IMG/VR virus record: IMGVR_UViG_3300005529_001081
Coordinates: 1 to 55,374 of that record
Length of the DNA stretch: 55,374 nt
Strand: one strand, 5' to 3'
Source: a virus
Position 1 is the stretch's first letter. Every line of letters starts with the position of its first letter. The notes beneath the pieces are model-generated. The model made no database searches. It saw only the letters and a program-made list of their open reading frames with translations, and was not told the DNA's origin. Shown here one piece after another: positions 16,927-49,695 of the stretch. A program made the position numbers and the translations under genes.

Positions 16927-16933
16927 GCGACCG

Positions 16934-17386
16934 GTGGCTTCGAACAAGCACGCGCCTCTCGGACTCCGGGCAGCGGCTAGCAAACTCAAAATCAGCCACG
17001 TCGCGCTGCTGAAGGCGGTCGAGTCGGGCAGGATTAAGCGGCGTGAGGATGGCAAATTCGACCTGGAAGCCTGTCGGCGAGAGCTGGCAGCCAACAGCAA
17101 TCCGAAGAAACAGAAATCGGCCCGCGCGCAGCAGCACAAGAAGCCGCTCAGTCCGGATGACACCTACAACGAGCTCTGCCGGCGCCGCGAAGCCGTAAAG
17201 CTTGAGAAGGATGAGTTAGACCTGGCGCGTAAGAAGGGCGAGTTGGTTCCGATCGGCGAGGTAAACGCATTCATTTCCGGAATGATCATTCGGGCGCGCG
17301 ATCGCTTGCTCGCAATCGAATGCGATGAGCGCACCGGCCACGAAATACGCGGCGCTCTCCGAGACCTCGCTCAGTACGTGGGCTAG
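16934..17386 (+). CDS. Terminase small subunit
   Basis: A 150-residue protein starting at GTG. The first 50 residues (LRAAASKLKISHVALLKAVESGRIKRREDGKFDLEACRRELA) are a winged/HTH domain like lambda Nu1. A coiled-coil middle (YNELCRRREAVKLEKDELDLARKKGELVPIGEV) and a C-terminal helix follow, the usual build of small terminases in this family. It recognises the packaging site and hands DNA to the large subunit, whose start overlaps it by 62 bases. Confidence 0.8.
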   Translation: MASNKHAPLGLRAAASKLKISHVALLKAVESGRIKRREDGKFDLEACRRELAANSNPKKQKSARAQQHKKPLSPDDTYNELCRRREAVKLEKDELDLARKKGELVPIGEVNAFISGMIIRARDRLLAIECDERTGHEIRGALRDLAQYVG

Positions 17387-19283
17387 CCTCTGGCTTCCGC
17401 CGGAACGGCTGCCGCTGTCGCAGTGGGCCGAGCAGAATTTGATTCTGTCCTCGGAATACTCCGCCAGCATCGGTCCAATAAAGCTGTACGGCTGGCAGAA
17501 GGAGCCACTCGATAGCTTCACGGATCCGCGCGTAGAAACGACCGTGCTGATGTGTTCGACGCAGATGCTCAAGACTCTGTTGATCCAGGCAGCCCTCGCC
17601 TACTCCATCAGCCAGCAGCCAGGGCCGACGCTTATCCTCGAGCCCAAGGACGCCGACGCCAAATCGTTCTCTAAAGAACGCCTGGCGCCCATGATCCGGG
17701 ACAATCCCTCTCTGAGCGTCGTCGCGGAATCGAAGGGGCGGTCCAGTTCAAACACGATCCAGGAAAAAACCTTCCCTGGCGGCACGTTGGCCTTGGTCGG
17801 AGCAATCGCGCCCGGCAATCTGGCCCGGAGATCGATCCGGTACCTCCTGTGCGACGAGATCGACAAGTACCCGGCCAGCGCAGGCGCCGAAGGCGATCCG
17901 ATCGACCTAGCCTGGGAACGGACAGTAACTTTCGGTGCGCGCCGTAAACGGGTGCTGGCCTGTTCCCCGACCGGCCTCGGGCGAAGCCGCATCGGCAAGG
18001 CTTATGAGGCGAGTGACCGGCGCCGGCCATGGATCCCGTGTCCCAAATGCGGAGAGTTCCAGGTCCTCAAATGGAGCCAGGTCGTTTTCGATCCTGTCGG
18101 CTACAAATGCGCAGCCTGTGGGGCCGTCTGGGCAGACGAGGAACGCTGGGCCGCTTGCGAGCGAACGGAATGGCGCCCGGAAGGCCCTTTTCGCGGCACG
18201 GCCGGATTCTGGATCTCGCATCTCTATTCGCCCTGGAAGCGAATGGCGGCAATGGTCGCTGACTACCTCGACCGGAAGGAAGACCGGCAGCGATACAAAG
18301 TTTTCGTCAACACGACGCTGGCCGAGCTCTGGGAAGAGCAGGGCGATACCCCAGATGACGAGATTCTGCTGGGCCGGAGAGAAGAGTACCCAGCAAATGA
18401 TCAGGCCGTTGTGCCAACGCGCGGTCTTTTCCTTACCTGCGCCGTCGACGTTCAGGAAAACCCTCCTCGGCTCGAGTACGAGGTCGTCGCCTGGGGCAGA
18501 AACCGGGAGAACTGGTCCATTGCCTACGGAGCCGTACAGGCTACGGCGTCAAACGGCCAGGCGCTTCCGGTAACGAGCCCCGAGCTCTGGGAAAAGCTCG
18601 ATCGCGAGGTGCTTCAGCGCGAATGGCAGCACGAGAGCGGCCAGAGCCTCCCCATTCTGGCAATGGGGATTGATACAGGTTCGAGGCCACAGCCGGTTTA
18701 TGAGTTCGCCAAACGTCACGCTCAGCCTGTATATTCCGCTGCCGGGTTGAAAGTGGCGGCGCCGCGTACCGTTGTCCCGCTCAAGGGCGTCAAGGACGAG
18801 ATCCGGGTCATCTCCAAGATCTCCAAAGAGGACGCGGCAAGGAAACGGCAGAATGTTCGAATCGTGAGCATCGGGACGCACCGGTGCAAGCAGGAACTTT
18901 ACGACGATCTCAGAGATTCCCGCCCGAGGCCTGACGGATCCGCCTCTCCTCGGTGTCACCATTTTCCGCAGGCCTATGGCAGCCAGTATTTCGAAGGGCT
19001 GTGCTCAGAGAAGCGGGTGCTGAAAGCCAGCGGAGACGTCTCCTGGCAGAAGGTGCCCGGCCGCCGCAACGAGCCCTTGGACCTTAAAGTTTACAACCGC
19101 GCATGCTATGCAATCGTCGGCGGTGACAGGTTTAACGAGGCTCAGTGGGCCAGTTTCGAGGAAGCCGTGGCTCCGGCCGTTGCTGAGCCGGAGTCTGAAC
19201 CCGAGCCTTCCGAACGGCTTGACGCGGAGCCGGAGACAGGGGGTTGGCTGGGCAGCAGAACGCGCAACTGGCTTCGCCGTTAG
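17325..19283 (+). CDS. Terminase large subunit, GpA family
   Basis: The 652-residue protein follows the lambda GpA family: LSQWAEQNLILSSEYSASIG-IKLYGWQKEPLD at the start, an ATPase with CSTQMLKTLL in place of Walker A and LLCDEIDKYP as Walker B, a four-cysteine zinc site (CPKCGEFQVLKW and YKCAACGAVW), and a C-terminal nuclease with FLTCAVDVQENPPRLEYEVVAWG and CHHFPQAYGSQYFEGL. The Walker A glycine before K-T is leucine here. GpA enzymes cut at cos sites, so the virion DNA probably has cohesive ends. The ATG lies inside the small-subunit gene. Confidence 0.95.
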   Translation: MSAPATKYAALSETSLSTWASLWLPPERLPLSQWAEQNLILSSEYSASIGPIKLYGWQKEPLDSFTDPRVETTVLMCSTQMLKTLLIQAALAYSISQQPGPTLILEPKDADAKSFSKERLAPMIRDNPSLSVVAESKGRSSSNTIQEKTFPGGTLALVGAIAPGNLARRSIRYLLCDEIDKYPASAGAEGDPIDLAWERTVTFGARRKRVLACSPTGLGRSRIGKAYEASDRRRPWIPCPKCGEFQVLKWSQVVFDPVGYKCAACGAVWADEERWAACERTEWRPEGPFRGTAGFWISHLYSPWKRMAAMVADYLDRKEDRQRYKVFVNTTLAELWEEQGDTPDDEILLGRREEYPANDQAVVPTRGLFLTCAVDVQENPPRLEYEVVAWGRNRENWSIAYGAVQATASNGQALPVTSPELWEKLDREVLQREWQHESGQSLPILAMGIDTGSRPQPVYEFAKRHAQPVYSAAGLKVAAPRTVVPLKGVKDEIRVISKISKEDAARKRQNVRIVSIGTHRCKQELYDDLRDSRPRPDGSASPRCHHFPQAYGSQYFEGLCSEKRVLKASGDVSWQKVPGRRNEPLDLKVYNRACYAIVGGDRFNEAQWASFEEAVAPAVAEPESEPEPSERLDAEPETGGWLGSRTRNWLRR

Positions 19284-19503: not shown

Positions 19504-21012
19504 TTGAACTGGATCGACCGGAGCGTGGCTTGGCTGGCGCCGCAGGCCGGCCTACGCCGTGCGCGCGCCCGGCTGGCCCTTCAGGCCGTCGAGCGATTCG
19601 CCTACGAGGGAGCCAAATCTGGCCGCCGGACCTCTGGCTGGACCACGCGCGGATCCGATGCCAACTCCGAAATCGGCTCCGGGCTGAGTTCGCTGCGCGA
19701 TCGCGCGCGCGACCTGGTCCGCAACAATCCGCACGCGGCCAGGGGCGTCATGGAGCTGGCCGGCGCGCAGATAGGGACGGGCATCATTCCGCGGGCCGAT
19801 ACGGGCGACAAGAATCTCGACAAGCTCATCGATGGCGAGTTCAGCCGGTGGGCGGAGCGCTGCGATGCTGACGGTCAGCTGGATTTCTACGGCGTGCAAT
19901 GGCAGGTCGTGAAGGCTGTCCCGGAGAGCGGCGAGGCGCTGGTTCGCTTTAAGATTTCCCGACCGTCCTCGGAGATCCGAGTTCCGCTACAGCTGCAGGT
20001 ACTCGAGTCGGATTTCCTGGACCACACCCGCACGATCCAGACCGAGACCGGGGGCTACATCCTCCAAGGCGTCGAATTCGACAAGAGCGGTCAGCGGAAG
20101 GCCTATTGGCTATGGACCACGCATCCGGGATCGGTGCTGCCCATCTCGCCGCGACTGTTGAGTCAGCCCGTGCCCGCAACAGACGTGCTCCATGTGTACA
20201 AGAAAGACCGTCCAGGGCAGGTTCGCGGGGCGAGCTGGTTTGCGCCTGTGATCATGAAGCTGCGCGACCTCGATGAATATGAGGACGCCGAGCTCATTCG
20301 AAAAAAGATCGAAGCCTGCGTCGTGGCCTTCATCGAATCGCCAGAGGGCGCCGATGCGGCAGGACTTGGAAAACCAAAAACAGATTCTTCCGGCAGGAAA
20401 GTCGAATCATTCGAGCCCGGCATGATCGAGCGCCTGTCGCCGGGCGAGAAGGCCACCTTCAACAGCCCCCAGGCTACCGGCGGGTATCGCGATTTCCGAA
20501 CGCCCCAGCTCCAGGCGATCGCCGCCGGCCTCGGCCCGACTTACGAGCAGCTCAGCGGAGACTTTTCGAACGTAAACTACAGCAGCTTCCGCGGAGCACG
20601 CCTCGGATTCAACACAGTGGTCGAGCAGTATCGCTGGTTGTGCCTGATCCCGATGTTTTTGCTGCCGGTCTGGCGCAAGTTTATCGACATGGCCTACTTG
20701 GCCGGCGTGATTCCTGAGCCGAACTACGGCGTCCGCTGGACGGCGCCCAAGCTCGAGTCCGTGGATCCGCTCAAAGACGCTCTGGCTGAACGTCAGCGTC
20801 TGCGCAACCTGACTCTAACCCTCCCAGAAGCCATCGCAGAGCACGGGTATGATCCCGCCAGCCAGCTCGAGGAAATCGCCGAGACGAACAAGACACTCGA
20901 CGAGCTCGGGCTGATCAGTGATGGCGACCCCAGGAAGGTAACCGCTGCCGGCGTGGGCCAGACCGTGGCCCTGGCCGCCGAGAAAGGGCACCTATTAGAT
21001 GCCAGCCATTAA
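19504..21012 (+). CDS. Portal protein, lambda family
   Basis: The 502-residue product starts at TTG 4 bases after the gpW-like gene. It has the lambda-B portal signatures: LRDRARDLVRNNPHAARGVMELAGAQIGTGI, QWQVVKAVPESGEALVRF, DVLHVYKKDRPGQVRGASWFAPVIMKLRDLDEYEDAELIRKKIEACVVAFI, and LSGDFSNVNYSSFRGARLGFN. It forms the dodecameric ring at one capsid vertex through which DNA enters and leaves. It overlaps the protease gene by 14 bases. Confidence 0.95.
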   Translation: MNWIDRSVAWLAPQAGLRRARARLALQAVERFAYEGAKSGRRTSGWTTRGSDANSEIGSGLSSLRDRARDLVRNNPHAARGVMELAGAQIGTGIIPRADTGDKNLDKLIDGEFSRWAERCDADGQLDFYGVQWQVVKAVPESGEALVRFKISRPSSEIRVPLQLQVLESDFLDHTRTIQTETGGYILQGVEFDKSGQRKAYWLWTTHPGSVLPISPRLLSQPVPATDVLHVYKKDRPGQVRGASWFAPVIMKLRDLDEYEDAELIRKKIEACVVAFIESPEGADAAGLGKPKTDSSGRKVESFEPGMIERLSPGEKATFNSPQATGGYRDFRTPQLQAIAAGLGPTYEQLSGDFSNVNYSSFRGARLGFNTVVEQYRWLCLIPMFLLPVWRKFIDMAYLAGVIPEPNYGVRWTAPKLESVDPLKDALAERQRLRNLTLTLPEAIAEHGYDPASQLEEIAETNKTLDELGLISDGDPRKVTAAGVGQTVALAAEKGHLLDASH

Positions 21013-21952
21013 AGTTCATCACACGCATACAACCGACACTTCCTGGGACGCGTCCGTCCAGAAAAGAAACCTGAAAGTCGACCAGGATCCTGCCTATTAC
21101 GAGGAAGCTTACGCTGAACGGCTTCCCGAGACAGACGGGAAAAACAAGAGCGATTTCGATTTTATTCACCACATGGTGAGCGCCGACGGAACCGTCGGCA
21201 GCGCGAATCTGACCGCGTGCTCAAACGCGATCGGCGTCCTTAATGGCGGCCGCGGCGGAACGACGATCCCCAAGGAGGACATCCAGGGCGTTTACGACCA
21301 CCTGGCCGCGCACCTGAAGGACGCTGGTAAGGAGGCGCCGCCTCTGAAGGCATCGGCAGAAGCCGGGCATGCCGTTGAGCGTTTCGCCGCTCCGTTTGCT
21401 CCGCAAACGGTGAACGAGAGCGATCGCATCGTCGACGTCGTGTGGTATACCGGCAAAGCCGTTCCGCGCGCGGATTTCTGGAGTGGAGACGGCTACGATC
21501 TTACGCTGAGTCTCAAGCCCGCCGACGTCAGACTTGATCGTCTGAATTCGGGCGCGGCTCTCCTTGACGACCACAACGACTTCGGAATCCTGAACCAGAT
21601 CGGCGTCGTTCTTAAGGCCTGGGTGGACGCCGGCGTGGCCAGAGCCACGGTTCAGTTCTCGAAACGCGACGACGTGACTCCGATCTGGGAGGATGTTCGC
21701 GCCGGCATCCTTCGCAATCTCAGTTTCGGCGCCTGGATCTATAACAAGATCGAAACCACTGCAAAGGATGCGCGCCGCAAGAGTTTTCTTGCGAACGATT
21801 GGGAGCCCTTCGAGGTCTCGCTCGTTCCCGTGCCGGCGGACGCGGATACGGCATTCCTCTCGGCGAAAGGACGTCGCCCGATCTCTCCCAGTGAGCAGAT
21901 CGACCTGGCGGCCGCTCGCAAACGGGAATTGGACATTTTGAAGTTGCGTTAG
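20999..21952 (+). CDS. Prohead maturation protease (U35-like) with N-terminal extension
   Basis: A 317-residue protein. The first 115 residues form a separate domain (FDFIHHMVSADGTVGSANLTACSNAIGVLNGGRGGTTIPKEDIQGVYDHLAAHLKDAGKEAPPL) often fused to phage proteases. The protease core has LLDDHNDFGILNQIG (probable catalytic His), GILRNLSFGAWIY (probable Ser) and WEPFEVSLVPVPADADT, typical of prohead proteases. It cleaves scaffold segments of the capsid protein during maturation. A terminator-like hairpin follows. Confidence 0.85.
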   Translation: MPAIKVHHTHTTDTSWDASVQKRNLKVDQDPAYYEEAYAERLPETDGKNKSDFDFIHHMVSADGTVGSANLTACSNAIGVLNGGRGGTTIPKEDIQGVYDHLAAHLKDAGKEAPPLKASAEAGHAVERFAAPFAPQTVNESDRIVDVVWYTGKAVPRADFWSGDGYDLTLSLKPADVRLDRLNSGAALLDDHNDFGILNQIGVVLKAWVDAGVARATVQFSKRDDVTPIWEDVRAGILRNLSFGAWIYNKIETTAKDARRKSFLANDWEPFEVSLVPVPADADTAFLSAKGRRPISPSEQIDLAAARKRELDILKLR

Positions 21953-21960
21953 GGCAGTAA

Positions 21961-21990
21961 CCCCGCCCGCGAAGGCGGCCGGGCATTTTT
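21961..21990 (+). terminator. Rho-independent terminator before capsid gene
   Basis: CCCGCCCGC, loop GAAG, GCGGCCGGG pair over 9 positions with one mismatch, followed by CATTTTT. It lies between the protease and major capsid genes with no new promoter in the 23 bases left, so it probably attenuates or stabilises mRNA ends rather than stopping all transcription. Confidence 0.75.
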
Positions 21991-22013
21991 CCAAAGTACA
22001 TGGAGGAAGTGAA

Positions 22014-23570
22014 ATGAACCGAATCGAACGCCTTCGGCAAATGAAAAAGAAGGCGGTGGACCGTATGGAAGCGATCCATGCTACCGCGACAGCGGCCAAG
22101 CGGGATCTGACGGAGACCGAGAAAACCGAATACGAGCAGCTCAGGGCGGAAGCCGAAGACCTCTCGTTGACGATCGCCGATCTAGAAAAACTCGGGAGCC
22201 CAGCTCCCATGCCCGCTCCGGCGGCAAACCAGAAGGACGAAGCGACGCTCAAGGCCGAGGGGCGCCAGGAAGAGCGCCTGCGGGCAAAGACGATCGAAGA
22301 TCTCGTCGCCACGGCGAAACTTGGGGCGGATTTTGCCAAGCAGCTCGTCGAGTCCGGGGCGAGCATCGACCAGGCCCGGGAAAAGATCCTGAACAAGATG
22401 CGCGAAGACCAGGGTAAGCAGCCCGAAACCACCGCGCACGTGGCTGCCGGTGCGGATGCCCGCGACAAAGGCCGCGCCGCAATGACGGAGGCTCTGCTCC
22501 ATCGGATCAGCCCGCGCCAACATCAGCTCAAGGGCGCTAACGAGTATGCCGGCTTCACGCTGCTGGACTTCGCGCGCGAATCGCTGTCCCTTGCCGGCGT
22601 CAAGGTTCGGGGGATGAACCGCGACGAAATCGCCCGCGCGGCGCTGTTCGGCCGCAATGGAGCCGAACAGTATTTCGCCGGCCTGTCGGGGACCTCGGAT
22701 TTCCCGGCAATCACGGCCGACGTCGCCAACAAGCGGCTGCGGATGGCGTACGAGGCGGCTCCCCGGACGTTCGTTCCGTTCTGCCGCCAGGCTACGTCGC
22801 CTGACTTCAAGACCGTGAATCCGGTCCAGTTGAGCGACGTTTCGTCTTTCCAGAAAGTAAACGAGAACGGTGAGTTCAAGACATTCACCGCGTCGGACGG
22901 CAAGGAAAGCTACCGGCTGGCCACCTACGGCGGGATTTTCCGCATGACCCGCCAGCTGGTCATCAACGACGACCTCCGCGCTTTCGACCGGATCACCCAG
23001 GGGATCGGGACCTCGGCCGCGCGCCTGGAGAACGAGACCGTGTGGGCTGTGATCACCGCGAATCGGGCGATGGCGGACACGGTGGCTCTGTTCCATGCGA
23101 ACCACTCGAACCTGAATTCCGGCGGGACCAGCGTGTTGGATCTCGACGGACTCTCCGCCGCCCGCACGGCGCTGCGCAAGCAGACCGCGCCCAAGGGGCA
23201 AAAACTGAACCTCTCCGCGCGTTACATTCTGCTGCCTGCGGCGCTCGAGACAGCCTTCGATCAGCTCTACAACTCGCTGCAGCTTCTGGCTGCTCCGGCC
23301 CCCACAGACATCGTTCCGCCGGATCTCGTGCGTAACCTGACCAAGATCGTCGAGCCGATTCTGGACGATAGCAGCGCCACAGCCTGGTATCTGGCGGCGG
23401 ATCCGGCGACCATCGACACCATCGAGTACTGCTATCTGGAGGGTCAGGAAGGCGTCTACGTCGAGACCCGAAACGGCTTCGAAGTGGACGGAGTGGAAAT
23501 CAAGGGCCGGCTGGATTTTGCCGCCGCGGCGATCGACTACCGCGGTCTGCAAAAGAACGCCGGAGCCTAA
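22014..23570 (+). CDS. Major capsid protein with N-terminal scaffold domain
   Basis: The 518-residue protein has a strong site (TGGAGGAAGTGAA) before its ATG. Residues 1-140 are a charged coiled coil (RIERLRQMKKKAVDRMEAI, KTEYEQLRAEAEDLSLTIADLEKL), probably a built-in scaffold (delta domain) removed by the prohead protease. The remainder has the pattern of HK97-fold capsids of the Mu gpT-like group: YGGIFRMTRQLVINDDLRAF, LFHANHSNLNSGG, LSAARTALRKQTAPKGQKLNL and ARYILLPAALE. It is flanked by terminators, as expected for the most abundant product. Confidence 0.92.
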   Translation: MNRIERLRQMKKKAVDRMEAIHATATAAKRDLTETEKTEYEQLRAEAEDLSLTIADLEKLGSPAPMPAPAANQKDEATLKAEGRQEERLRAKTIEDLVATAKLGADFAKQLVESGASIDQAREKILNKMREDQGKQPETTAHVAAGADARDKGRAAMTEALLHRISPRQHQLKGANEYAGFTLLDFARESLSLAGVKVRGMNRDEIARAALFGRNGAEQYFAGLSGTSDFPAITADVANKRLRMAYEAAPRTFVPFCRQATSPDFKTVNPVQLSDVSSFQKVNENGEFKTFTASDGKESYRLATYGGIFRMTRQLVINDDLRAFDRITQGIGTSAARLENETVWAVITANRAMADTVALFHANHSNLNSGGTSVLDLDGLSAARTALRKQTAPKGQKLNLSARYILLPAALETAFDQLYNSLQLLAAPAPTDIVPPDLVRNLTKIVEPILDDSSATAWYLAADPATIDTIEYCYLEGQEGVYVETRNGFEVDGVEIKGRLDFAAAAIDYRGLQKNAGA

Positions 23571-23659: not shown

Positions 23660-23998
23660 ATGACGAATTTTGTGCAAAACGGCAGGGTCGTCACTTTGAC
23701 GGCGCCGTACACCCGAACCGCCAACCAGGGTGCGTTGGTGGGGTCCATCTTCGGCGTGGCGGAGAACGATGTCACCAGCGGCTCCGAGGGAGAGTTCGCG
23801 ATAGAGGGGGTCTTCGATTTAACGAAGGCCGCCGGGGTCGACTTCGCTCAAGGCGACAAGTGCTATTGGGATGACAGCGCCAAAGAAGTGGCGGACACCG
23901 ATTCGGCCAACAGCTATTTGATCGGCGTGGCCGTGAAAGCTGCTGCTGTCGGCGATTCGACGGTCCGGGTGCGCCTGAATGGGACGTCGGTCAGCTAG
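23660..23998 (+). CDS. Capsid decoration protein (DUF2190-like)
   Basis: A 112-residue beta-rich protein: FVQNGRVVTLTAPYTRTANQGALVGSIFGVA, then G--GEFAIEGVFDLTKAAGVDFAQGDKCYWDD and SYLIGVAVKAAAVGDSTVRVRLNG. This is the pattern of DUF2190 proteins, found directly after capsid genes and known or suspected to decorate the head. GTGGAGG lies before the ATG. Confidence 0.85.
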   Translation: MTNFVQNGRVVTLTAPYTRTANQGALVGSIFGVAENDVTSGSEGEFAIEGVFDLTKAAGVDFAQGDKCYWDDSAKEVADTDSANSYLIGVAVKAAAVGDSTVRVRLNGTSVS

Positions 23999-24464
23999 CC
24001 GGTCGCTCGTTGTCGCACTGCTGGCGCTTCTGGCGCCAGTGTGGGCTCAGGAGACGAAGTACACCTATTTCGTCTCCCGCTCTGTCACCGGACAGACCAA
24101 CAGGATCACCATCCGCCAACCTACTGCTGGCGGCCGGGATCTGAAGCTCGATGGAGTCTACTTTTGCTGCTCCGTCGCGTGCAGCCCGGTAATCAGCAAG
24201 GGAGGCTCGGTCTCGGGGGGCACAGCGGGCACGATCGTAAATCTTGACGATCGTTCGCCGTCGGCCACCTCGTCAGCTACCTTGGACGGCACGGTGACCG
24301 GGGCGACGTCGATATCCTTCCCGACGATCAGCGCCGGCGCAGACAGGACCCACGGGGGCGGCCTCTACCTGCACTGGACAGGAACGCCAAGCCAGTTCAC
24401 CGTGGAGCTCACATCGGGGTCCAGCGGAACTCTCTACATACTGCTCAACTTCTCAGAACCGTGA
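23979..24464 (+). CDS. Secreted beta-rich protein with signal peptide (161 aa)
   Basis: The N-terminus (RRSASRSLVVALLALLAPVWAQETKY) is a clear Sec signal peptide with likely cleavage after A-Q or W-A. The mature part is serine/threonine/glycine rich and beta-like (TKYTYFVSRSVTGQTNRITI; LYLHWTGTPSQFTVELTSG), with one cysteine pair (CCSVAC). No family recognised. A signal peptide in the middle of the head operon is odd; the protein is probably exported by the infected or lysogenic cell. It overlaps the decoration gene by 20 bases. Confidence 0.6.
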   Translation: MGRRSASRSLVVALLALLAPVWAQETKYTYFVSRSVTGQTNRITIRQPTAGGRDLKLDGVYFCCSVACSPVISKGGSVSGGTAGTIVNLDDRSPSATSSATLDGTVTGATSISFPTISAGADRTHGGGLYLHWTGTPSQFTVELTSGSSGTLYILLNFSEP

Positions 24465-25111
24465 CGTATTGGACGGTTCCGAGGGAGTGGCCTGGGGAGA
24501 CCATATTTGTCCTGGCCGGCGGACCAAGCCTGCGCGGTTTCGACTCGAGCCCGCTGGCCGGCCGCCGGGTGATCGCGATCAATAATTCCTGGGAGCTTAA
24601 ACCAGATTGTGACGTCCTGCACTTTTGCGATCGCCGCTGGTGGGATCCGAATGGTTTGGGGCACGGTGAGCGGGTGAAAGCGGGATTTACTGGACGCTGG
24701 ATCACCACCGTCGCTGCCTTGGTTCACGATCCGGCGGTCAAGCGCCTTCGCCAGTCGATGCGCGAGAGCGGAGTCTCAGAGGATCCTTCCGCGCTGGTAC
24801 ACGGCGGTCACGGAGGGTATCAGGCGATCGGGCTGGCCTTCCTGTTTGGCGCCAAGAGGATCGTTCTCTTGGGCTATGACATGCGGTCGCTTCCCCTCGA
24901 GGAAGCAATTCCGGGCGACGGAACCCATTGGCACCACGGGCACTCCGGCCAGAGACGGGATCACTTCGAGCATCGGCTCAGGACTTGCTTTCTGCCCTCG
25001 ATGCGCAGGCTGGTAGAACCGCTCGCGCGGGCCGGAGTCGAAGTGCTTAACGCCACGCCCGATTCAGCGCTTGATTGCTGGCCGAGAGTGCGCCTGGAAG
25101 AAACGCTGTAG
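24461..25111 (+). CDS. DUF115-like phage protein, possible sugar-modifying enzyme
   Basis: The 216-residue product, starting at GTG in a 4-base overlap, begins FVLAGGPSLRGFDSSPLAGRRVIAINNSWEL-PDCDVLHFCDRRWW and continues GYQAIGLAFLFGAKRIVLLGYDM. The GGPSL and AINNS motifs and the Y-D-M end are those of DUF115/MptE-like proteins, which in other systems resemble glycosyltransferases that modify flagellin or surface sugars. It opens the glycan-modification cassette, which supports such a role. Confidence 0.65.
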   Translation: MTYWTVPREWPGETIFVLAGGPSLRGFDSSPLAGRRVIAINNSWELKPDCDVLHFCDRRWWDPNGLGHGERVKAGFTGRWITTVAALVHDPAVKRLRQSMRESGVSEDPSALVHGGHGGYQAIGLAFLFGAKRIVLLGYDMRSLPLEEAIPGDGTHWHHGHSGQRRDHFEHRLRTCFLPSMRRLVEPLARAGVEVLNATPDSALDCWPRVRLEETL

Positions 25112-25113
25112 CC

Positions 25114-25569
25114 GTGTTAGCCGGCAAGACCTGGTGCGCGCTGTACCCGACGAGCCGCCGCGTCGAGGATTTGATCGAACCGTTCAGATCGAATTGCTCT
25201 GGGTTCCTGGCTGATCTTAAGTCCTCCGGCGCCACGGTGCTGATCGCGGCTACGCGCCGGCCGGAAGAGAGAGCCTGGCTCATGCACTGGGCCTGGAGAA
25301 TTGGCCGAGAGGGATATGACCCGGCGAAAGTCCCTACTCGATCAGGTATTTCGATCGAATGGACCAGGCCGGGAGCCCTGGAGATGGTCGCCGGATACGG
25401 GATAGCCTACCGTCCGGCTTTGACGTCGCGGCACATTCAGGGCCGGGCGATCGACATGCGGATTACCGGATGGAAGGGAACCGAGCAGGAGCTCTACGCG
25501 CGGGGAGCCAGCTTCGGCGTCCGGAAGCTGATTAAAGACCCGCCCCACTGGAGCGACGACGGTACATGA
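25114..25569 (+). CDS. M15-like peptidase (probable endolysin)
   Basis: The GTG at 25114 starts 3 bases after the previous stop; the frame upstream of it lies within that gene. The 151-residue product has a peptidase M15-type zinc motif: SRHIQGRAIDMRITGW (H and D ligands) and PPHWSDDG (second H), with TRRPEERAWLMHWAWRIGREG before it. M15 enzymes cut L-Ala-D-Glu or D-Ala-D-Ala bonds in peptidoglycan. It is the best endolysin candidate, although it lies among glycosylation genes rather than in a lysis cluster; it could also be a virion-associated lysin. Confidence 0.7.
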   Translation: MLAGKTWCALYPTSRRVEDLIEPFRSNCSGFLADLKSSGATVLIAATRRPEERAWLMHWAWRIGREGYDPAKVPTRSGISIEWTRPGALEMVAGYGIAYRPALTSRHIQGRAIDMRITGWKGTEQELYARGASFGVRKLIKDPPHWSDDGT

Positions 25570-26138
25570 TTTCGGTGGTCATCCCGGTCCGCCGCGGCGG
25601 ATCTGCGCGTACGACACTCGTCTCGCTTGCAGCCCAAACGATGCAGGATTTCGAAATCATCGTTTCCTGGGACGAGGAGCTGCGGGGCGCAAATTGGGCC
25701 AGGAATCGCGGTGCCGAACTGGCAACGGGAGACCTCTTGCTGTTCTCGGACGACGACGTCTCCTGGTCGCACGACGCCCTTGAGCGATTGACCGGTGCGC
25801 TCGCCGCCGACCAGGCTGCCAGCTGGGCCTACGGTGCCTACGAAATGGGAGGTCGGATCCAATGCGACCTGCCGTTTGACGCCCGGCGCCTCCGGAGAGG
25901 GAATTACATTTCCACGATGAGCCTGGTCAAGCGAGCGGACTTTCCTGGCTTTGATGAGTCCGTCGCTCGACTTCAGGACTGGGATCTGTGGCTCACGATG
26001 ACGGAGCGGGGGCATCGGGGCGTGTACTGCGGCGGAGTTATCTTTTCGACCGTCGAGAAGCCTGGGATCACGCTTGATGGACCCGTCAGCTGGGAGGAAG
26101 CCCGCATGATCGTGGCGCGGAAACACGGTATTGCATGA
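25566..26138 (+). CDS. Glycosyltransferase family 2 (A)
   Basis: A 190-residue GT-A fold enzyme: MISVVIPVRRGGSARTTLVSLAAQ at the nucleotide-binding start, N-R-GAELATGDLLLFSDDDVSW with the D-D-D metal site, and a later F-G-FDESVARLQDWDLWL, the acceptor-side ED-like motif. It transfers a sugar from a nucleotide donor; the acceptor is unknown. The absence of membrane segments fits a cytoplasmic enzyme acting on virion proteins or phage DNA. Confidence 0.85.
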   Translation: MISVVIPVRRGGSARTTLVSLAAQTMQDFEIIVSWDEELRGANWARNRGAELATGDLLLFSDDDVSWSHDALERLTGALAADQAASWAYGAYEMGGRIQCDLPFDARRLRRGNYISTMSLVKRADFPGFDESVARLQDWDLWLTMTERGHRGVYCGGVIFSTVEKPGITLDGPVSWEEARMIVARKHGIA

Positions 26139-26836
26139 AAATCGCGGTCTACACACTTACCCGTGATCGCCTGGCTTACACGAAAGCCTGTTTTTCGGAA
26201 CTTCGCGAGAAGGCTGGAATATCGTTTGACCATTTCGTGGTGGACAACGGATCCCAGGACGGCACGGCAGATTGGCTCTCCGATGAGCTCAGAGCGCGCC
26301 GGCTAAAGGGACTCACTCTTAATCCAGCGAACGAGGGGATCTCGGCGGGTTCGAATACCGCTCTCGAGCATATCCGGAAGATAGGCTCGCCGTACGATCT
26401 CGTTGTCAAGTTCGATAACGATTGCTTCGTGAAATCGGAGAACGTGCTGGGGCAGATGGCCGAGATCTTCGAATCGATCGGCCCTTTTGCTTCGCGGTTC
26501 GTGCTGAGCCCCCGCGTCGAGGGCATAAATCGACAGCCATCGCGCGGTCGAATGACCCAGCTCGCCGGCCGCCGCATCGGATTGACGGCGATCGTCGGCG
26601 GACTCTTTCACTGTGTTCCTGCGGACGTGTATCGCCGCTACCGTTACCCCACAGAGCTGCCGCTCGCCAGCGGCCAGGATGATCACTTCTGCCACTGGTT
26701 CAAGGACAACGGCGGCGAAGTCGGCTACGTGGAGGGGCTGATCGTCGAGCACTACCGCGGCACCGACCAGCAGGCGCTCGACTATCCCGCGTATTTCGAA
26801 CGCAAGTGGCAAGAGGAAAAGACCGTGTCCCGATGA
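26135..26836 (+). CDS. Glycosyltransferase family 2 (B)
   Basis: A 233-residue GT2 enzyme: MKIAVYTLTRDRLAYTKACFSEL, FVVDNGSQDGTADWL, NEGISAGSNTALEHI, then LVVKFDNDCFV as the D-x-D site and SGQDDHFCHWFKDNGGEVGYVEGL. The 4-base overlaps on both sides place it in one translational unit with the other cassette genes. Confidence 0.88.
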   Translation: MKIAVYTLTRDRLAYTKACFSELREKAGISFDHFVVDNGSQDGTADWLSDELRARRLKGLTLNPANEGISAGSNTALEHIRKIGSPYDLVVKFDNDCFVKSENVLGQMAEIFESIGPFASRFVLSPRVEGINRQPSRGRMTQLAGRRIGLTAIVGGLFHCVPADVYRRYRYPTELPLASGQDDHFCHWFKDNGGEVGYVEGLIVEHYRGTDQQALDYPAYFERKWQEEKTVSR

Positions 26837-27804
26837 AGACCGAAAAGGCGAAAGTCTCGATTTCAGCTCGCGCGGAGAAGGCCATCAAATGGCTGGATCA
26901 CGTGATAGAAGCCGATGGAGGAGTGCACCGCAACCTGGACGTCGTCTCCGAAGCCAAAGGACCCGTCTCGACGGAAATTACGGGATATGCCGCCCACCTG
27001 TTCGCCTGGCTGGGCCTGGTCACAGGAGAAAAGGAGTTCATCAGCCGAGCGGAACTGCACGCGGATTGGATTGTGCGGCTCTGGTCTTCACAGACCACTT
27101 TCCTTACCTTCGAGCCTGGCGCCGATCTCACGTATTTCTTCGACACCGGGATCGTTGCTAGGGCTTTGGCGCTATGCGCCAGGGCGGCCGGCTCTTCGCT
27201 TTACGAGGCGATCGCGCGAAAGCTGGCTGAGTACATGAAGCATTTCCGGGGGCCTGCCGGCTCGTACCGACCCATCCATGATCGAAATGGGGAGCCACAC
27301 GATTCGGAATCGACCTGGTGGTCCCGCTCAGCGGGTCCGTATCAGCTCAAGGCAGCGCTGATCTGGAGATACTTCGGGGATCCGGCCTGGAGCGAGTTGC
27401 TCCAGCGCTATCTATCCTCTGAGGTTGAGGCTCCGACGGACTTCTATGAAGCCGGCGACAGGCTCCATCCCGCGTCTTATTTCAGCGAAGCCCTGGCACA
27501 GGGAGGCGAACCGGACCGTGCGCTCGAAATTGCCGGTGAAATCCGGCCCTGGGCGAATTACAAGCTGTGTCGTACCGATGCATTGGCACAGCGCGTTCGA
27601 GTCGAGCGCCTGCTCAGGTCCAAGGCCGCGGCATCCGGCTACCTGCTGCACCAGGACGTCAAGTCCGGCGGCTTTTGGTTTGCGTCCCGGGACGGCGTTG
27701 TGCCGCCGGTTCTGAGCGCACACGCGACGATGTTCGCGATCCAGGCCATGGTTATGGAACAGCCCACAGCTCGCTGTGGTGTCGAGGAACTCGAAATCGT
27801 ATGA
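26833..27804 (+). CDS. Alpha/alpha-barrel carbohydrate-active-type protein
   Basis: The ATG at 26833 overlaps the previous stop (ATGA). The 323-residue protein is built of helix pairs: STEITGYAAHLFAWLGLVTG, FFDTGIVARALALCARA, WWSRSAGPYQLKAALIWRYFG, and a last STxFAIQAM-type helix. This is the pattern of six-hairpin or (alpha/alpha) toroid enzymes, such as glycan epimerases, lyases or unsaturated-sugar hydrolases. The exact activity cannot be told from the sequence. It belongs to the glycan cassette. Confidence 0.6.
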   Translation: MKTEKAKVSISARAEKAIKWLDHVIEADGGVHRNLDVVSEAKGPVSTEITGYAAHLFAWLGLVTGEKEFISRAELHADWIVRLWSSQTTFLTFEPGADLTYFFDTGIVARALALCARAAGSSLYEAIARKLAEYMKHFRGPAGSYRPIHDRNGEPHDSESTWWSRSAGPYQLKAALIWRYFGDPAWSELLQRYLSSEVEAPTDFYEAGDRLHPASYFSEALAQGGEPDRALEIAGEIRPWANYKLCRTDALAQRVRVERLLRSKAAASGYLLHQDVKSGGFWFASRDGVVPPVLSAHATMFAIQAMVMEQPTARCGVEELEIV

Positions 27805-28559
27805 GCCGGCCGCAGTGCATAGTCACGAGCTACCAGCGCCCGAAGTATCTGGAGCCTTGCCTGGACTCGATGCGCCAGGACGATATCGAGTTGTATGTCG
27901 TTGACGGCGGATCCGACCAGCAGACACGCTCGATTATCGAGCGCCTGGCGGATGGCTGGATATTTCTAGAGGGCAACCCGGGCGCGGACGTTTTGAAGAA
28001 CGCCGGCATCGAACGTTTCGTGACTCAGTCTCAGTTCATCATTGGCAGCGACGACTACCTGTTCCCCAAGGGCTGGTCGGGCCTGGCAACTGAGCAGTAC
28101 AGGGCTCTTAACGCGAACGGACTGAAATACGCCATGATGGCGTGCCCGACCGAACAAGTGATCGCCCGCCACACCCAGCCTGAGGGCCTCAACGGCGGTG
28201 CCGGAATTCACTATTTCCGCGAATCTCGCACAGGGATCGAGATCATGACCACCAGTTGCGCCATGGTTGCCGGGACGGTAATGGATGCGGACGTTGTGCG
28301 CCGGGTCGGAGGGTTCCCGGTTTACGGCAAGAGCGGCCAGGGCGACTGGGCCATATCGAAACGGATCCGGCGGCTGGGATACGAAGTCGGGTACCTCAGC
28401 GAGCCCGTGATCGTTCACTTAGGGCAGCAGAAGTTCGAGGATTATCCCGAATATTCCGCCGACTTTGCCGCGGACGAGGCGGTCTGGCTCAAGCGGGCGC
28501 GCCAGGACCAATGGAGACCTGCGCGGCCGAATCAGGATGGCGAGGCAGCGAGATGCTGA
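27801..28559 (+). CDS. Glycosyltransferase family 2-like (C)
   Basis: The ATG at 27801 overlaps the previous stop by 4 bases. The 252-residue product has PQCIVTSYQRPKYLEPCLDSM, ELYVVDGGSDQQTRSII, NPGADVLKNAGI and FIIGSDDYLFPKGW, in which the S-D-D segment replaces the usual D-x-D, and later GGFPVYGKSGQGDWAISKRIRRLGYEVGYL. It is a GT-A enzyme by fold; donor and acceptor are unknown. Confidence 0.8.
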   Translation: MSRPQCIVTSYQRPKYLEPCLDSMRQDDIELYVVDGGSDQQTRSIIERLADGWIFLEGNPGADVLKNAGIERFVTQSQFIIGSDDYLFPKGWSGLATEQYRALNANGLKYAMMACPTEQVIARHTQPEGLNGGAGIHYFRESRTGIEIMTTSCAMVAGTVMDADVVRRVGGFPVYGKSGQGDWAISKRIRRLGYEVGYLSEPVIVHLGQQKFEDYPEYSADFAADEAVWLKRARQDQWRPARPNQDGEAARC

Positions 28560-29140
28560 GAATCCATCAGGAAAACCTGAACACTCCCGCGTACTTCGAT
28601 CAGATCTGGTCGACGCCGGACTTTCACCGTTTCGACCGGGTCCGGATGGAGGCCTTCGTCGAGAAAGTCCGGGAAGGAGATCTGGTACTGGACGTCGGCT
28701 GCGGTTTGTTCGGATGGGCCGAATACCTGATGACGTTGCGCCGCCCTCGCGCGATCGCGCATGCCGTGGACTTCTCGCCTTATGCTCTTCAGACACTCGG
28801 GGAACGGTGTCCCGGGCTGATCCTTGCCCACGCCGACATCCGTGAGGGCCTGCCGTACGCTTCTGGTTCGTTCGATATGGTCGGCGCCGGTGAGCTGATC
28901 GAACACATGGAGCATCCCCAGGCCCTGGTCGACGAGCTCGCCCGGGCAACCAAGCCGGGCGGCTGGATCGTGGTAGGTACGGTCGATCCTCACTGCGAGG
29001 ACGGCAAGGATCTCGAGTACCCGGAACATCTCTGGGAGTTCACGCCGGCCGAGCTCGCCGCGTTTTCAGCAAAACACGGACCGACCCAGTACAAACGCGT
29101 CGGCAATTACGATTTCACGTTCTGCCGGAAGGGCTTCTGA
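28553..29140 (+). CDS. SAM-dependent methyltransferase (class I)
   Basis: The ATG at 28553 overlaps the end of the preceding gene by 7 bases. The 195-residue protein has motif I VLDVGCGLFGWAEYL, an acidic residue after the second strand (AHAVDFSPYA), ADIREGLPYASGSFDMVGAGELIEH as motifs II/III, and TKPGGWIVVGT. This is a Methyltransf_11-like enzyme. In a glycan cassette it most likely methylates sugars, as in O-methylated capsular or virion glycans. Confidence 0.85.
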   Translation: MLRIHQENLNTPAYFDQIWSTPDFHRFDRVRMEAFVEKVREGDLVLDVGCGLFGWAEYLMTLRRPRAIAHAVDFSPYALQTLGERCPGLILAHADIREGLPYASGSFDMVGAGELIEHMEHPQALVDELARATKPGGWIVVGTVDPHCEDGKDLEYPEHLWEFTPAELAAFSAKHGPTQYKRVGNYDFTFCRKGF

Positions 29141-29143
29141 GGG

Positions 29144-29683
29144 ATGGTCCTCCTGGATCTCGATGATTTCTGCGAAGGGAATAGCCGGCTTCATGAACTC
29201 TGCTTGCTGCGCAGGCAGATTCCCGGGTTCAAGGTCACGCTGTTCACGATCGTAGGCCGCTGCTCTCCGGCATACCTGAGCGCGATCGCCAGCCTGGATT
29301 GGATCGACCTGGTCCCGCACGGGGAAATGCACGAAACCTCGCGGGAATGTCAGGGATGGACTTATGACCGGTCTGTCCGCTATCTCGACTGGGTCGAACC
29401 ACTCGGTCTCACCAGGGGTTTCAAAGCACCTGGATGGCAGATTAGCGATGGCATGTACCAGGCGCTCCTCGAGCGGGACTGGTGGGTCGCCGACCAGGAG
29501 TACAACGACGGCCGCCGGCCCGCAGGGTTGAGAAATTACGTGCTCGGCCGGGGAGAGAACGTGCAGATACACGGGCATGTCGGTCACCTGGGCGGCCACA
29601 ACCTGAACGAGCTCGAGTTCATCACCGAGCAAATCCTGTCCATGAAAGGCCAGGAATTCGGTTTCGTGAAGGATTTCGTCTGA
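29144..29683 (+). CDS. Polysaccharide deacetylase-like protein
   Basis: The 179-residue product has a NodB-like core: LLDLDDFCEGNSRLHELCLLRRQIPGFKVTLFTI (acidic metal site), WIDLVPHGEMHETSRECQGW (two histidines), RGFKAPGWQISDGMYQALLERDWWVADQ, and a final HGHVGHLGGHN. It probably removes acetyl groups from N-acetyl sugars, making free amines in the glycan. It could also be inactive; the catalytic pattern looks intact by eye. Confidence 0.75.
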   Translation: MVLLDLDDFCEGNSRLHELCLLRRQIPGFKVTLFTIVGRCSPAYLSAIASLDWIDLVPHGEMHETSRECQGWTYDRSVRYLDWVEPLGLTRGFKAPGWQISDGMYQALLERDWWVADQEYNDGRRPAGLRNYVLGRGENVQIHGHVGHLGGHNLNELEFITEQILSMKGQEFGFVKDFV

Positions 29684-29686
29684 GCT

Positions 29687-30370
29687 GTGACCTACGACAT
29701 CGTCGTCCCCCATTACGGGAAAGGGCGTCTCACCGAGCTCTGCAAGCGATGCCTCGAAACGGTTCGGGACTACTCGGCCGACTACCGGCTGATATTCGTT
29801 GACAACGGTTCTCCGGAATTTCCCCGCATCTACCCGGAGCTTCGCCAGCACCGAACCGCCACAGTCTTGCGGAATACGAAAAACGTGGGGTTCGTGAGGG
29901 CGGTAAATCAGGGCATCGCCATGGCCCGAGCCCCGTATGTGGTTCTGCTGAACAACGACGCCGAAGCCGTCCCCGGCTGGCTCGAGGCCCTAAGAGCGCC
30001 GCTTGACGCCGGCGCTGCGCTCAGCGGGCCCAGGACCACCGCCGCCGGGAGCTGGCAGGGACGAACTCATGCTGGCCCGGGCTGGGAGTTCCTGCACAGC
30101 CGGGCGATGTTGGCTTTCTTCTGCACCATGTTCCGGCGCGAAGTTTTCGAGCAGCTGGGAGCACTGGACGAGGATTTCGGACCAGGTCTTGGGGATGACG
30201 ATCATTTTTGCTGGCTGGCCCAGCGTGCAGGCATGAGACTGGCTCTGGTCCGCAGCCTGGTGATCCCGCATCATCACCGGTCGACGTTCAAGGAAGTGTA
30301 CGGATCAGAAGCCATACCGGCCATGCAGGAGCGCGCGATGGCTCTTTTTCGAGAAAAGTCAAGCAGATGA
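29687..30370 (+). CDS. Glycosyltransferase family 2 (D)
   Basis: A 227-residue enzyme from a GTG start: YDIVVPHYGKGRLTELCKRCLETV, LIFVDNGSPEFPRIY, TKNVGFVRAVNQGIAMARAPYVVLLNNDAE (D-x-D-like NND), then FGPGLGDDDHFCWLAQRAGMRLAL. The layout matches rhamnosyl/galactofuranosyl-type GT2 enzymes. It overlaps the next gene by 4 bases. Confidence 0.88.
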   Translation: MTYDIVVPHYGKGRLTELCKRCLETVRDYSADYRLIFVDNGSPEFPRIYPELRQHRTATVLRNTKNVGFVRAVNQGIAMARAPYVVLLNNDAEAVPGWLEALRAPLDAGAALSGPRTTAAGSWQGRTHAGPGWEFLHSRAMLAFFCTMFRREVFEQLGALDEDFGPGLGDDDHFCWLAQRAGMRLALVRSLVIPHHHRSTFKEVYGSEAIPAMQERAMALFREKSSR

Positions 30371-31038
30371 TCACGCTGATTACATGCACCGGCGGCCGTC
30401 CGGAGGCCTTCGCATTATGCGAGCGGTGGATGTCGCGCCAGACGCTCGACGCCGACATGCAGTGGATCGTCGTCGACGATTGTGATCCAGCTACGCCCGC
30501 GAATCGAGGCCAGATCATCCTCCGACCGCAGCCCCGGTGGGAGCCTGGCACACTGACGCTGGCGCGGAACCTGGCCGCGGCGTTGACCATGGCGCGCGGC
30601 GACAAGATCATTTTCATTGAGGATGACGACTGGTACGGACCAACCTATCTGGCCGACATGAGCGCTCGCCTGGATGGGGTTCCGCTGGCCGGGGAGATTC
30701 CGGCCAGATACTACCACGTTCCGGAGAGACGGTACTTCGAGGTTGGCAACGCGCATCACGCGAGCCTTTGCCAAACCGGAATTCGAGGTGACATGGTACC
30801 GGCGCTTCTGTCAGCGTGCCAAGCCGAATCGAAATTCCTCGACCTGCTTCTTTGGCAGAAATTCGGAAAGAAAGGCCGGCTGGAAGTGGGCTCCGGATCC
30901 GTCGGCATCAAGGGCATGCCCGGGCGGCCAGGCATTGGAGTCGGCCACCGGTCATCTGGCTCGCGATGGAAGGCGGATCCGTCTGGCGAAGGCCTGCGAA
31001 GTTGGATCGGCTTGGACGCCGTCGCCTATGGGGTTTGA
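30367..31038 (+). CDS. Glycosyltransferase family 2-like (E)
   Basis: The ATG at 30367 overlaps the previous stop. The 223-residue protein has MITLITCTGGRPEAFALCERWM, QWIVVDDCDPATPANRG, LTLARNLAAALTMARGDKIIFIEDDDWYGPTYLADM with the E-D-D-D metal site, and a C-terminal part without the usual acceptor helix. It closes the cassette and overlaps the connector gene by 11 bases. Confidence 0.75.
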   Translation: MITLITCTGGRPEAFALCERWMSRQTLDADMQWIVVDDCDPATPANRGQIILRPQPRWEPGTLTLARNLAAALTMARGDKIIFIEDDDWYGPTYLADMSARLDGVPLAGEIPARYYHVPERRYFEVGNAHHASLCQTGIRGDMVPALLSACQAESKFLDLLLWQKFGKKGRLEVGSGSVGIKGMPGRPGIGVGHRSSGSRWKADPSGEGLRSWIGLDAVAYGV

Positions 31039-31330
31039 TTTTTCTCCGCTCAGGAACGCCGAGCTCGCCGTGTTCGGGGATCCAGCTACGTTTCAGCCAG
31101 CCGATTCCGATTTGGACGACCTCGAGCACTCGGTCATCGAAGTGGATCCCGCAACGCTTCCGCCCGACACTTCGGGTGCACCGGTTAAGGTCCTATGGAC
31201 CGCACGCACGGTTTTTTCGGGATCCAGATTGCCAGCCAAGAACGATCGCTATTCGAAGGACGGCGACCAGTACCGGGTGTACGACGTGAAGACGGATAAG
31301 GCCGGCGGAGTATTGATTTTCCTCACATAG
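31028..31330 (+). CDS. Head-tail connector / head closure protein (gpFII-like)
   Basis: The ATG at 31028 gives a 100-residue protein: MGFDFSPLRNAELAVFGDPATFQ, EVDPATLPPDTSGAPVKVLW, DRYSKDGDQYRVYDVKTDKAGGVLIFL. This beta-barrel pattern and position, before the tail terminator and tube, fit the FII/head-completion family. The longer open frame upstream belongs to the glycosyltransferase region in another frame. Confidence 0.65.
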   Translation: MGFDFSPLRNAELAVFGDPATFQPADSDLDDLEHSVIEVDPATLPPDTSGAPVKVLWTARTVFSGSRLPAKNDRYSKDGDQYRVYDVKTDKAGGVLIFLT

Positions 31331-31852: not shown

Positions 31853-32932
31853 ATGCCAGCAAGAATTCAAGAGCTTAAAATCGGCATCGGGTTTCACCGC
31901 CAGACGGGCACCGGCGCCAGCGGAACGACCAAAACGCAGCTACAGACCGCCTTGGCGGCCATCGATCTGTGGAATCTCGGCCTGAACGCGTTTAACGCAC
32001 CCTTCCCTCAATTCAAAGCCGAAGACGATTCGGACTTCTTCGGCAAGGGCGACGAATGGGTGCGCCAGGTCTTTCCGACCTCGCTCGACGTGCCGTGGGA
32101 GTGGCCTTACTTCCTGACGAGTCAAAACTTCGCCCAGGTGATCGCTTTCGCGCTGGGGAAAACCACGAAGACTCCCGCGGGAAGCGGATTCCAGTACGTG
32201 GCCACTCCGATGGATCCCGTGACCGACGGAGTAAATCTGCCGGCCACGACTGTCGTTGCGGGCATCCGTCAGGCGACCGCAGGCGAAATGCTCGACATGG
32301 CTATCATCGGCATGGTCTGCACCGGATTCACCTTCCGGCTGACCAAGGGGTCTGGCCTTCAGAATAGCTCGCTAGTGTCGAGGTGGTCCGGCTGCGGCAA
32401 GTTCTCGAACAATTCAGGGGTTACGATCCCGGCGCGCTCAAACGAGGCTCGACTCGGCGCCGGCTCGGCCACAGCGATCAACATCAATGGTGTCGATTAC
32501 ATCACAAATGCCCGCTTTGTGGATCTCGAGTTCACCTACGATAACGGGTACAACCCGGAAGCGGGCAAGTTCCCCGGATCTGGATCCCAGAGCGGTTACG
32601 ACATCGGTGGGCGCGCGCGATTCGGGAAACGCACCGCTTCCCTGGTCTGGACCGTCGAACTGGAGCAAGATTCGCAAGAGCTTTCTGACCTAACAAGCCA
32701 GGTGGTCGGGTCCAGCCACATCCAACTGGTTGGCGCGGCGATCGGCGGCGGATCTTTCCACACCGCCGATATCTTGCTGCCGCAAACGATTCACAAAGAG
32801 TTCTCCATGCAGGACTCTGGCGACGGCTTCGTTGCTGCCAAGGTGGTGACAGCGATCGAATTCAACGACAGCCTCGGACCGATGGTTCTCACCGCCATCA
32901 CCGACAAAGACGAGATCGGAGAAGACGCGTAA
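31853..32932 (+). CDS. Major tail tube protein
   Basis: A strong site (GGAAGGAG) precedes the ATG. The 359-residue protein is beta-rich: IGIGFHRQTGTGASGTTKT, DVPWEWPYFLTSQNFAQVIAFALG, ARLGAGSATAININGVDYITNARFVDLEFTYDNG, and FSMQDSGDGFVAAKVVTAIEFND. Position before the tail chaperone pair and tape measure identifies it as the tail tube subunit, equivalent to lambda V. It is longer than the usual 150-250 residues and may carry an outward-facing extra domain. Confidence 0.75.
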   Translation: MPARIQELKIGIGFHRQTGTGASGTTKTQLQTALAAIDLWNLGLNAFNAPFPQFKAEDDSDFFGKGDEWVRQVFPTSLDVPWEWPYFLTSQNFAQVIAFALGKTTKTPAGSGFQYVATPMDPVTDGVNLPATTVVAGIRQATAGEMLDMAIIGMVCTGFTFRLTKGSGLQNSSLVSRWSGCGKFSNNSGVTIPARSNEARLGAGSATAININGVDYITNARFVDLEFTYDNGYNPEAGKFPGSGSQSGYDIGGRARFGKRTASLVWTVELEQDSQELSDLTSQVVGSSHIQLVGAAIGGGSFHTADILLPQTIHKEFSMQDSGDGFVAAKVVTAIEFNDSLGPMVLTAITDKDEIGEDA

Positions 32933-49608: not shown

Positions 49609-49695
49609 GATCAACCAATTATCCAGGCCGGCCCGGACAGGCGCAATCCTCCATCTCGTCCAGTACTTGGGTACCGGTCTGGGTAGCACGACGCT

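Follow-up and report, generated by a model that had tools for sequence, protein, structure and literature searches.

A modular gene cassette, probably for virion glycosylation, among the head and tail genes of a phage

In bacterial O-antigen and capsule loci, fixed ends enclose an exchangeable set of transferase, epimerase and methyltransferase genes. Experimental evidence of virion glycosylation in phages comes from a few mycobacteriophages. Phage Corndog carries an O-methyltransferase gene and three transferase genes between its portal and protease genes (PMC4351075), and enzymes of this type are reported to modify the capsid and the tail tube (PMC11600133, PMC12363180). The bacterial enzyme Maf glycosylates flagellin in the cytoplasm, with a proposed transfer onto a self-assembling protein (PMC4065374). 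Chlorovirus PBCV-1 encodes transferases, one of them joined to an O-methyltransferase-like domain, that assemble a complex glycan on its major capsid protein, seemingly independently of the host endoplasmic reticulum and Golgi (PMC4691112). Here we describe a block of ten genes in the IMG/VR virus record IMGVR_UViG_3300005529_001081, whose 55,374 bases we refer to as the window. The block lies among phage head genes, and nine of its ten genes encode sugar-handling enzymes. It is likely to be a phage virion-glycosylation cassette.

Eleven genes separate the head decoration gene from the probable connector gene: one unannotated open reading frame (ORF) and the cassette itself, which spans positions 24461-31038 (Table 1). 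The cassette genes follow the order DUF115, M15-like ORF, GT2a, GT2b, toroid-like gene, GT2c, methyltransferase, CE4-type deacetylase, GT2d and GT2e, and all of their ORFs are intact. From the decoration gene through the connector, neighbouring genes either overlap or are no more than 3 bases apart at every junction, and this anatomy indicates that the cassette is almost certainly co-transcribed and translationally coupled. A first-pass annotation of this DNA had drawn the block with exactly these limits, from the start of DUF115 to the stop of the last GT2, had placed it between decoration and connector genes on a transcript shared with the head genes, and had listed five GT2-like transferases, a DUF115-like protein, a toroid enzyme, a methyltransferase and a deacetylase. 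The limits and the placement proved correct, with a phrog_122 gene upstream and a weak phrog_82 match followed by a tail-tube-like gene downstream, and every structural sign backs the shared transcript. The enzyme list also stands, with the toroid assignment tentative and with the addition of the M15-like ORF, which had been omitted.

The gene families and folds agree with the earlier proposal of a glycan-modification pathway. All five GT2 proteins match PF00535 with 28.7-69.4 bits, above the curated cut-off of 23.3 (E 4.7e-19 to 1.5e-6). In alignments, GT2e displays an invariant EDD core and GT2d the DxD-like motifs NND and GDD; direct reading gives DDD, DND and SDD in GT2a, GT2b and GT2c. 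The deacetylase has no Pfam match and a single-sequence PDB search with it was also empty; its fold was resolved later by profile and model. The model (mean predicted local distance difference test score, pLDDT, 96.9; 45 sequences) finds mostly CE4 deacetylases as best matches (Foldseek E 3e-6, Z 13.2; NodB-type fold). Of the CE4 motifs (catalytic DD, H-x3-H, K/R-x-P and a C-terminal His), the residues D7, D8, H59, H63, K94-A95-P96 and H145 are invariant or at least 90% conserved in the 45 sequences. The toroid protein gave no match in a PDB profile search, and a homologue with 28% identity occupies the matching place in a second phage (locus L091, see below).

DUF115 matches a PHROG family annotated as 'alpha-2,3-sialyltransferase' (phrog_4603). 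Its AlphaFold model (pLDDT 92.8, alignment of 59 sequences) is most similar to the Magnetospirillum flagellin glycosyltransferase Maf (PDB 5mu5; Z 15.5, root-mean-square deviation 3.7, 188 of 216 residues), followed by the sialyltransferases CstII (Z 11.8) and CstI (Z about 12). The protein spans only residues 260-510 of 5mu5, which correspond to the central domain rather than to the three-domain architecture of Maf. By predicted fold, DUF115 is thus a Maf/GT42-like transferase, for which use of a cytidine monophosphate (CMP)-sugar and a protein acceptor are putative.

The cassette enzymes are soluble. The most hydrophobic 19-residue segment in any cassette protein scores 1.45, below the usual transmembrane threshold of 1.6, and searches of Pfam, PHROG and other family collections found no flippase, polymerase, lipid-carrier transferase or oligosaccharyltransferase among them.

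Comparison with related phages reveals that the cassette is an insertion in the head-to-tail gene slot. A scan of viral contigs with the major capsid protein returned 77 related loci with strong synteny, and in 29 of these capsid relatives both the decoration and the tail-tube genes could be placed. The distance between the two genes is 7,855 bases in the window, compared with 1,031-1,898 bases (median 1,776) in the 29 relatives. A test of whether the block is optional, with sharp boundaries and differing guanine-plus-cytosine (GC) content as signs, had been proposed. The block is optional, all 29 measurable relatives being without it; the cassette (0.611) and its flanks (0.615 and 0.613) form no GC boundary. 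PF00535 was found in none of the 48 capsid-relative records. Two loci with full-length capsid matches, L002 and L014, carry DUF115 in the slot that the cassette occupies in the window. In L014, further genes after DUF115 read as glycan-related from sequence alone, without Pfam support, and a similar protein (L092:8866) has no Pfam match either.

The same set of genes recurs elsewhere. Scanning with a DUF115 alignment confirmed at least 559 viral relatives; a GT2e scan confirmed 213 viral loci, of which the best 80 were taken, and a deacetylase scan gave 80. Whole cassettes emerged when the window genes were compared with the loci from the DUF115 scan, and the GT2e and deacetylase scans yielded further ones. 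The order GT2a-GT2b-GT2c-deacetylase-GT2d-GT2e is common to the window, contig 3300044457_000011 (one phage, recovered as L091, L170 and L284), L099/L178 and the closely similar L184 and L185. Locus L183 has the remaining cassette order of the window with GT2c not detectable, and shorter runs in the same order occur in L241, L243, L245-L248 and L268, some perhaps cut by contig ends. Because gene order is conserved in other phages, a chance association of the block is ruled out. The catalytic motifs of the deacetylase and GT2d and the gene order are kept at about 40-66% identity across many phages.

Around this conserved order the cassettes vary. The toroid gene of contig 3300044457_000011 sits at the position it has in the window, and across lineages the positions of the methyltransferase and toroid genes differ. 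Interiors of other loci hold nicotinamide adenine dinucleotide (NAD)-dependent epimerases/dehydratases, radical-SAM (S-adenosylmethionine)/B12 enzymes, other transferases and methyltransferases. Loci L179-L181 have only DUF115 and GT2e left of the cassette, and many more phages carry this minimal pair, either behind the capsid gene or immediately ahead of the tail-tube gene. DUF115 lies within 8 kb of GT2e in 29 of 55 dereplicated GT2e loci and is adjacent to it in 17. None of the thirteen virion genes of the window was detected in L099/L178 or L183-L185, pointing at a module that moves independently of the particle genes. A separate observation concerns L091, where a HicA-like small protein (16905-17105) and, by eye, a ParB-like protein (18115-18996) are encoded between GT2d and GT2e, so that this closest full cassette looks split by a second insertion.

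Placement among virion genes is repeated. In L170, the cassette is followed after GT2e by a homologue of the window's connector gene and then by a tail-tube gene 55% identical to that of the window. One lineage has Neck1/head-tail connector genes (phrog_5, phrog_2595) before the cassette and a major tail protein gene (phrog_158) after it; in a further lineage the DUF115-GT2e pair comes after a gene adjoining the head decoration gene, with minor head and connector genes behind the pair. Frequent families among 117 flanking genes, a tally without a matched control, were methyltransferases, glycosyltransferases, decoration, major tail, adaptor, Neck1 and terminator proteins, with single matches to portal and head proteins. 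In the cultured phages D3, PAJU2 and CcrColossus, a DUF115 gene neighbours capsid, connector or tail genes and a methyltransferase gene is close by; pmgP of phage P1 lies in a region matching DUF115. The virion had been named as the likely target when the block was first annotated, and since unrelated phages keep like cassettes among capsid, connector and tail-tube genes, that proposal now stands on firmer ground than could have been known then.

GT2e, the last gene of the cassette, is essentially virus-specific. It was found at 213 viral loci compared with 4 in 84,980 bacterial and archaeal genomes, a ratio that is approximate because the search patterns of the second scan were one or two residues longer. 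The deacetylase profile has no match in the four genomes that hold GT2e. In one of them, a Phycisphaeraceae metagenome-assembled genome (L237, 7820-10699), DUF115-like and GT2e-like domains are adjacent, outside any recognisable prophage, and belong to longer proteins that have additional Cys-rich parts. Searches of 50,697 phage records with tblastn gave no match for GT2e, GT2b, GT2c, the deacetylase or the toroid gene, and only three weak matches for GT2d; megablast of 15 kb against the same records, which looked for near-identical phages, was empty. A literature search found no paper on this cassette family. The first-pass view that a pathway of this size is unusual holds for cultured phages and fails for uncultivated ones, in which similar sets recur in the same order.

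Location and operon anatomy suggest how such a cassette might act. It would be expressed late, together with the head genes, and its soluble enzymes would work in the host cytoplasm on nucleotide sugars supplied by the host. DUF115 and GT2e, the fixed pair at the two ends, would probably start or anchor a glycan before or during assembly, with a capsid, decoration or tail-tube protein as acceptor. Extension would fall to GT2a-d, and trimming or capping to the methyltransferase, the CE4 deacetylase and the toroid enzyme. The methylated, partly deacetylated oligosaccharide proposed earlier is a putative product that follows from this enzyme list. Exchange of interior genes between phages would give each lineage a glycan of its own, and the benefit may lie in stability, adhesion or protection from defences or antibodies. 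The only hint at an acceptor, at most suggestive, is a Thr/Ser-rich insertion near residues 20-29, close to the N-terminus of the window's tail-tube protein; by eye, L170 has such a stretch too. More tentatively, and with somewhat greater reserve than belief, we propose that the cassette is one allele of a hitherto unrecognised, virus-specific 'virion antigen' locus, in which a fixed Maf-like/GT2e pair encloses an exchangeable interior, which spreads horizontally among unrelated uncultivated phages and lands among capsid and tail-tube genes, and which diversifies sugar coats much as bacterial O-antigens are diversified.

Several observations weigh against virion glycosylation by a virus-specific module. 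Neither the capsid nor the decoration protein of the window has a notable insertion, specific to the window, by which an acceptor could be recognised. The DUF115 model also matches hydroxymethylpterin pyrophosphokinase (HPPK; Z 10.9), and since pyrophosphokinases share the fold, transferase activity is not certain from the fold alone. An annotatable virion gene lies within 5 kb in only at least 31 of the 55 dereplicated GT2e loci, the remainder being unannotated rather than contradictory. Finally, at least one of the four genome loci with GT2e, that of the Phycisphaeraceae genome, looks non-phage.

The best surviving alternative, which we nevertheless regard as improbable, is that the cassette modifies the host surface: by altering lipopolysaccharide, capsule or exopolysaccharide of an infected cell or a lysogen, it would block superinfection or change serotype. 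GT2 enzymes, CE4 deacetylases and methyltransferases are generally common in polysaccharide loci, to which weak similarities were found, and the phage, which carries two tyrosine recombinase genes (1123-2625 and 11577-12176, both on the minus strand), may be temperate. This explanation fits poorly with a cassette that encodes neither a flippase or other membrane protein nor a lipid-linked donor enzyme, that sits with overlapping genes inside a late virion operon, and whose placement among virion genes is repeated in unrelated phages. Hypermodification of DNA, in which the transferases would glycosylate modified phage bases and confer nuclease resistance, is less probable still. Other phage glycosyltransferases do act on DNA (Pyle et al. 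2024, cited in PMC12619734), but no base-hydroxylating, thymidylate-synthase-like or TET/JBP gene was found in the larger ORFs scanned or in the ORF lists, an absence that is not proof because the record may be incomplete, and neither the Maf-like partner nor the placement in the virion operon fits. That the block is cargo or a decaying insertion of polysaccharide genes, carried by chance with no virion role, agrees with the lack of the cassette in nearly all capsid relatives, for whose assembly it is hence dispensable, but is the least credible reading given intact and conserved genes, ameliorated GC, order and deacetylase/GT2d motifs kept over many phages, and an essentially virus-specific GT2e.

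Table 1. Genes of the cassette and of its flanks in the window
Feature	Coordinates	Strand	Remarks
Major capsid protein	22014..23570	+	phrog_4523, E 1.1e-149; upstream flank, query for relatives
Head decoration protein	23660..23998	+	phrog_122, E 2.5e-28; upstream flank
Unannotated 161-amino-acid ORF	23979..24464	+	Overlaps decoration gene by 20 bases and DUF115 by 4 bases; no PHROG match
DUF115 / Maf-like (GT42-fold) glycosyltransferase (by predicted fold)	24461..25111	+	phrog_4603, E 2.1e-36; first cassette gene
M15-peptidase/endolysin-like ORF (tentative)	25075..25569	+	Between DUF115 and GT2a
GT2a glycosyltransferase	25566..26138	+	PF00535, E 2.5e-11; orthologues in same order elsewhere
GT2b glycosyltransferase	26135..26836	+	PF00535, E 9.3e-7
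Probable alpha/alpha-toroid sugar-active enzyme	26824..27804	+	PF03663 GH76, E 5e-4, below cut-off
GT2c glycosyltransferase	27801..28559	+	PF00535, E 6.1e-9
SAM-dependent methyltransferase	28556..29140	+	PF08241, E 3.7e-16
CE4-type deacetylase	29144..29683	+	Model and conserved motifs
GT2d glycosyltransferase	29687..30370	+	PF00535, E 4.7e-19
GT2e glycosyltransferase	30367..31038	+	PF00535, E 1.5e-6; last cassette gene, module hallmark
Probable connector	31028..31330	+	phrog_82 head closure, weak (E 0.03); overlaps GT2e by 11 bases; downstream flank
Tail-tube-like protein	31853..32932	+	Position kept in 29 capsid relatives; downstream flank

The M15-like ORF stands apart from the sugar-handling genes. 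Direct reading reveals H-x-x-G-x-A-x-D and P-H-W motifs, and there is a weak match to the endolysin family phrog_894 (E 0.014); Pfam, NCBIfam and a single-sequence PDB search returned no meaningful match, and the ORF has no relative in viral contigs and was found in no other cassette. Of the right-hand window genes scanned, none received another lysis annotation, so this ORF may be the endolysin of the phage. The unannotated ORF between the decoration gene and DUF115 is 26% Ser/Thr with a hydrophobic N-terminus, and we can only speculate that it is an acceptor or a virion protein.

Elsewhere in the window, the protease and the capsid protein are encoded by separate ORFs (20999-23570), where most relatives have one longer ORF of the protease-capsid type. 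A lone PF13578 methyltransferase gene (48967-49689, minus strand) lies among the tail-side genes; its homologues in L132 and L165 have glycan genes in their vicinity. The window also encodes a Ku-domain DNA end-binding protein (12309-13052, minus strand; PF02735, E 2.5e-26).

With respect to described systems, close counterparts of the cassette are the gene sets of Corndog (gp35-38) and Che8, in which a methyltransferase and glycosyltransferases are embedded in the virion operon with no membrane apparatus reported, an embedding found in the window as well. The Corndog set comprises four genes compared with ten in the window and occupies the portal-protease slot instead of the decoration-to-connector slot, and no deacetylase, DUF115 or toroid gene is reported for Corndog and Che8. 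When GT2b, GT2c, GT2d, GT2e, the deacetylase, the toroid gene and DUF115 were searched against the 50,697 phage records (GT2a, the methyltransferase and the M15-like ORF lying outside this search), no mycobacteriophage was among the matches listed, 28 DUF115 records being unlisted and the presence of Corndog and Che8 in the collection searched being unchecked. With Maf systems, the cassette shares the central, GT42-like fold of DUF115, which at 216 amino acids represents the central domain only, compared with 632 residues in the 5mu5 chain; there are no genes for nonulosonic acid synthesis in the cassette, and the acceptor would be a virion protein. Chlorovirus PBCV-1 likewise encodes its own transferases for a virion glycan, but it is a eukaryotic virus and there is no evidence of common descent.

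The layout of fixed ends and a variable middle is that of O-antigen loci. In contrast to these and to gtr loci, the cassette has no flippase, polymerase, lipid-carrier enzyme or transmembrane segment, and it sits in a virion operon. Compared with the few mycobacteriophage examples, the form described here is larger, modular and, as far as GT2e indicates, essentially virus-specific. If the cassette does glycosylate virions, uncultivated phages have a widespread modular version of this process that cultured collections almost entirely lack, and Maf-like protein and GT2e would provide a defined enzyme set for asking what phage sugar coats do, be it protection from bacterial or environmental binding, stability or adhesion. 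Cultured Pseudomonas phages offer a partial counterpart, a DUF115-hypothetical-methyltransferase set among the head-tail genes. In D3 (NC_002484.2; orf7, DUF115; orf12; orf13, methyltransferase), DUF115 lies right after the major head gene, and in PAJU2 (NC_011373.1; gp10-12) DUF115 follows head closure; in both, the methyltransferase precedes the tail terminator. Neither phage matched GT2e or another cassette gene, and the literature searched reports no function for these sets. D3 and PAJU2 are small model systems, growable in the laboratory, for the question of virion glycosylation.

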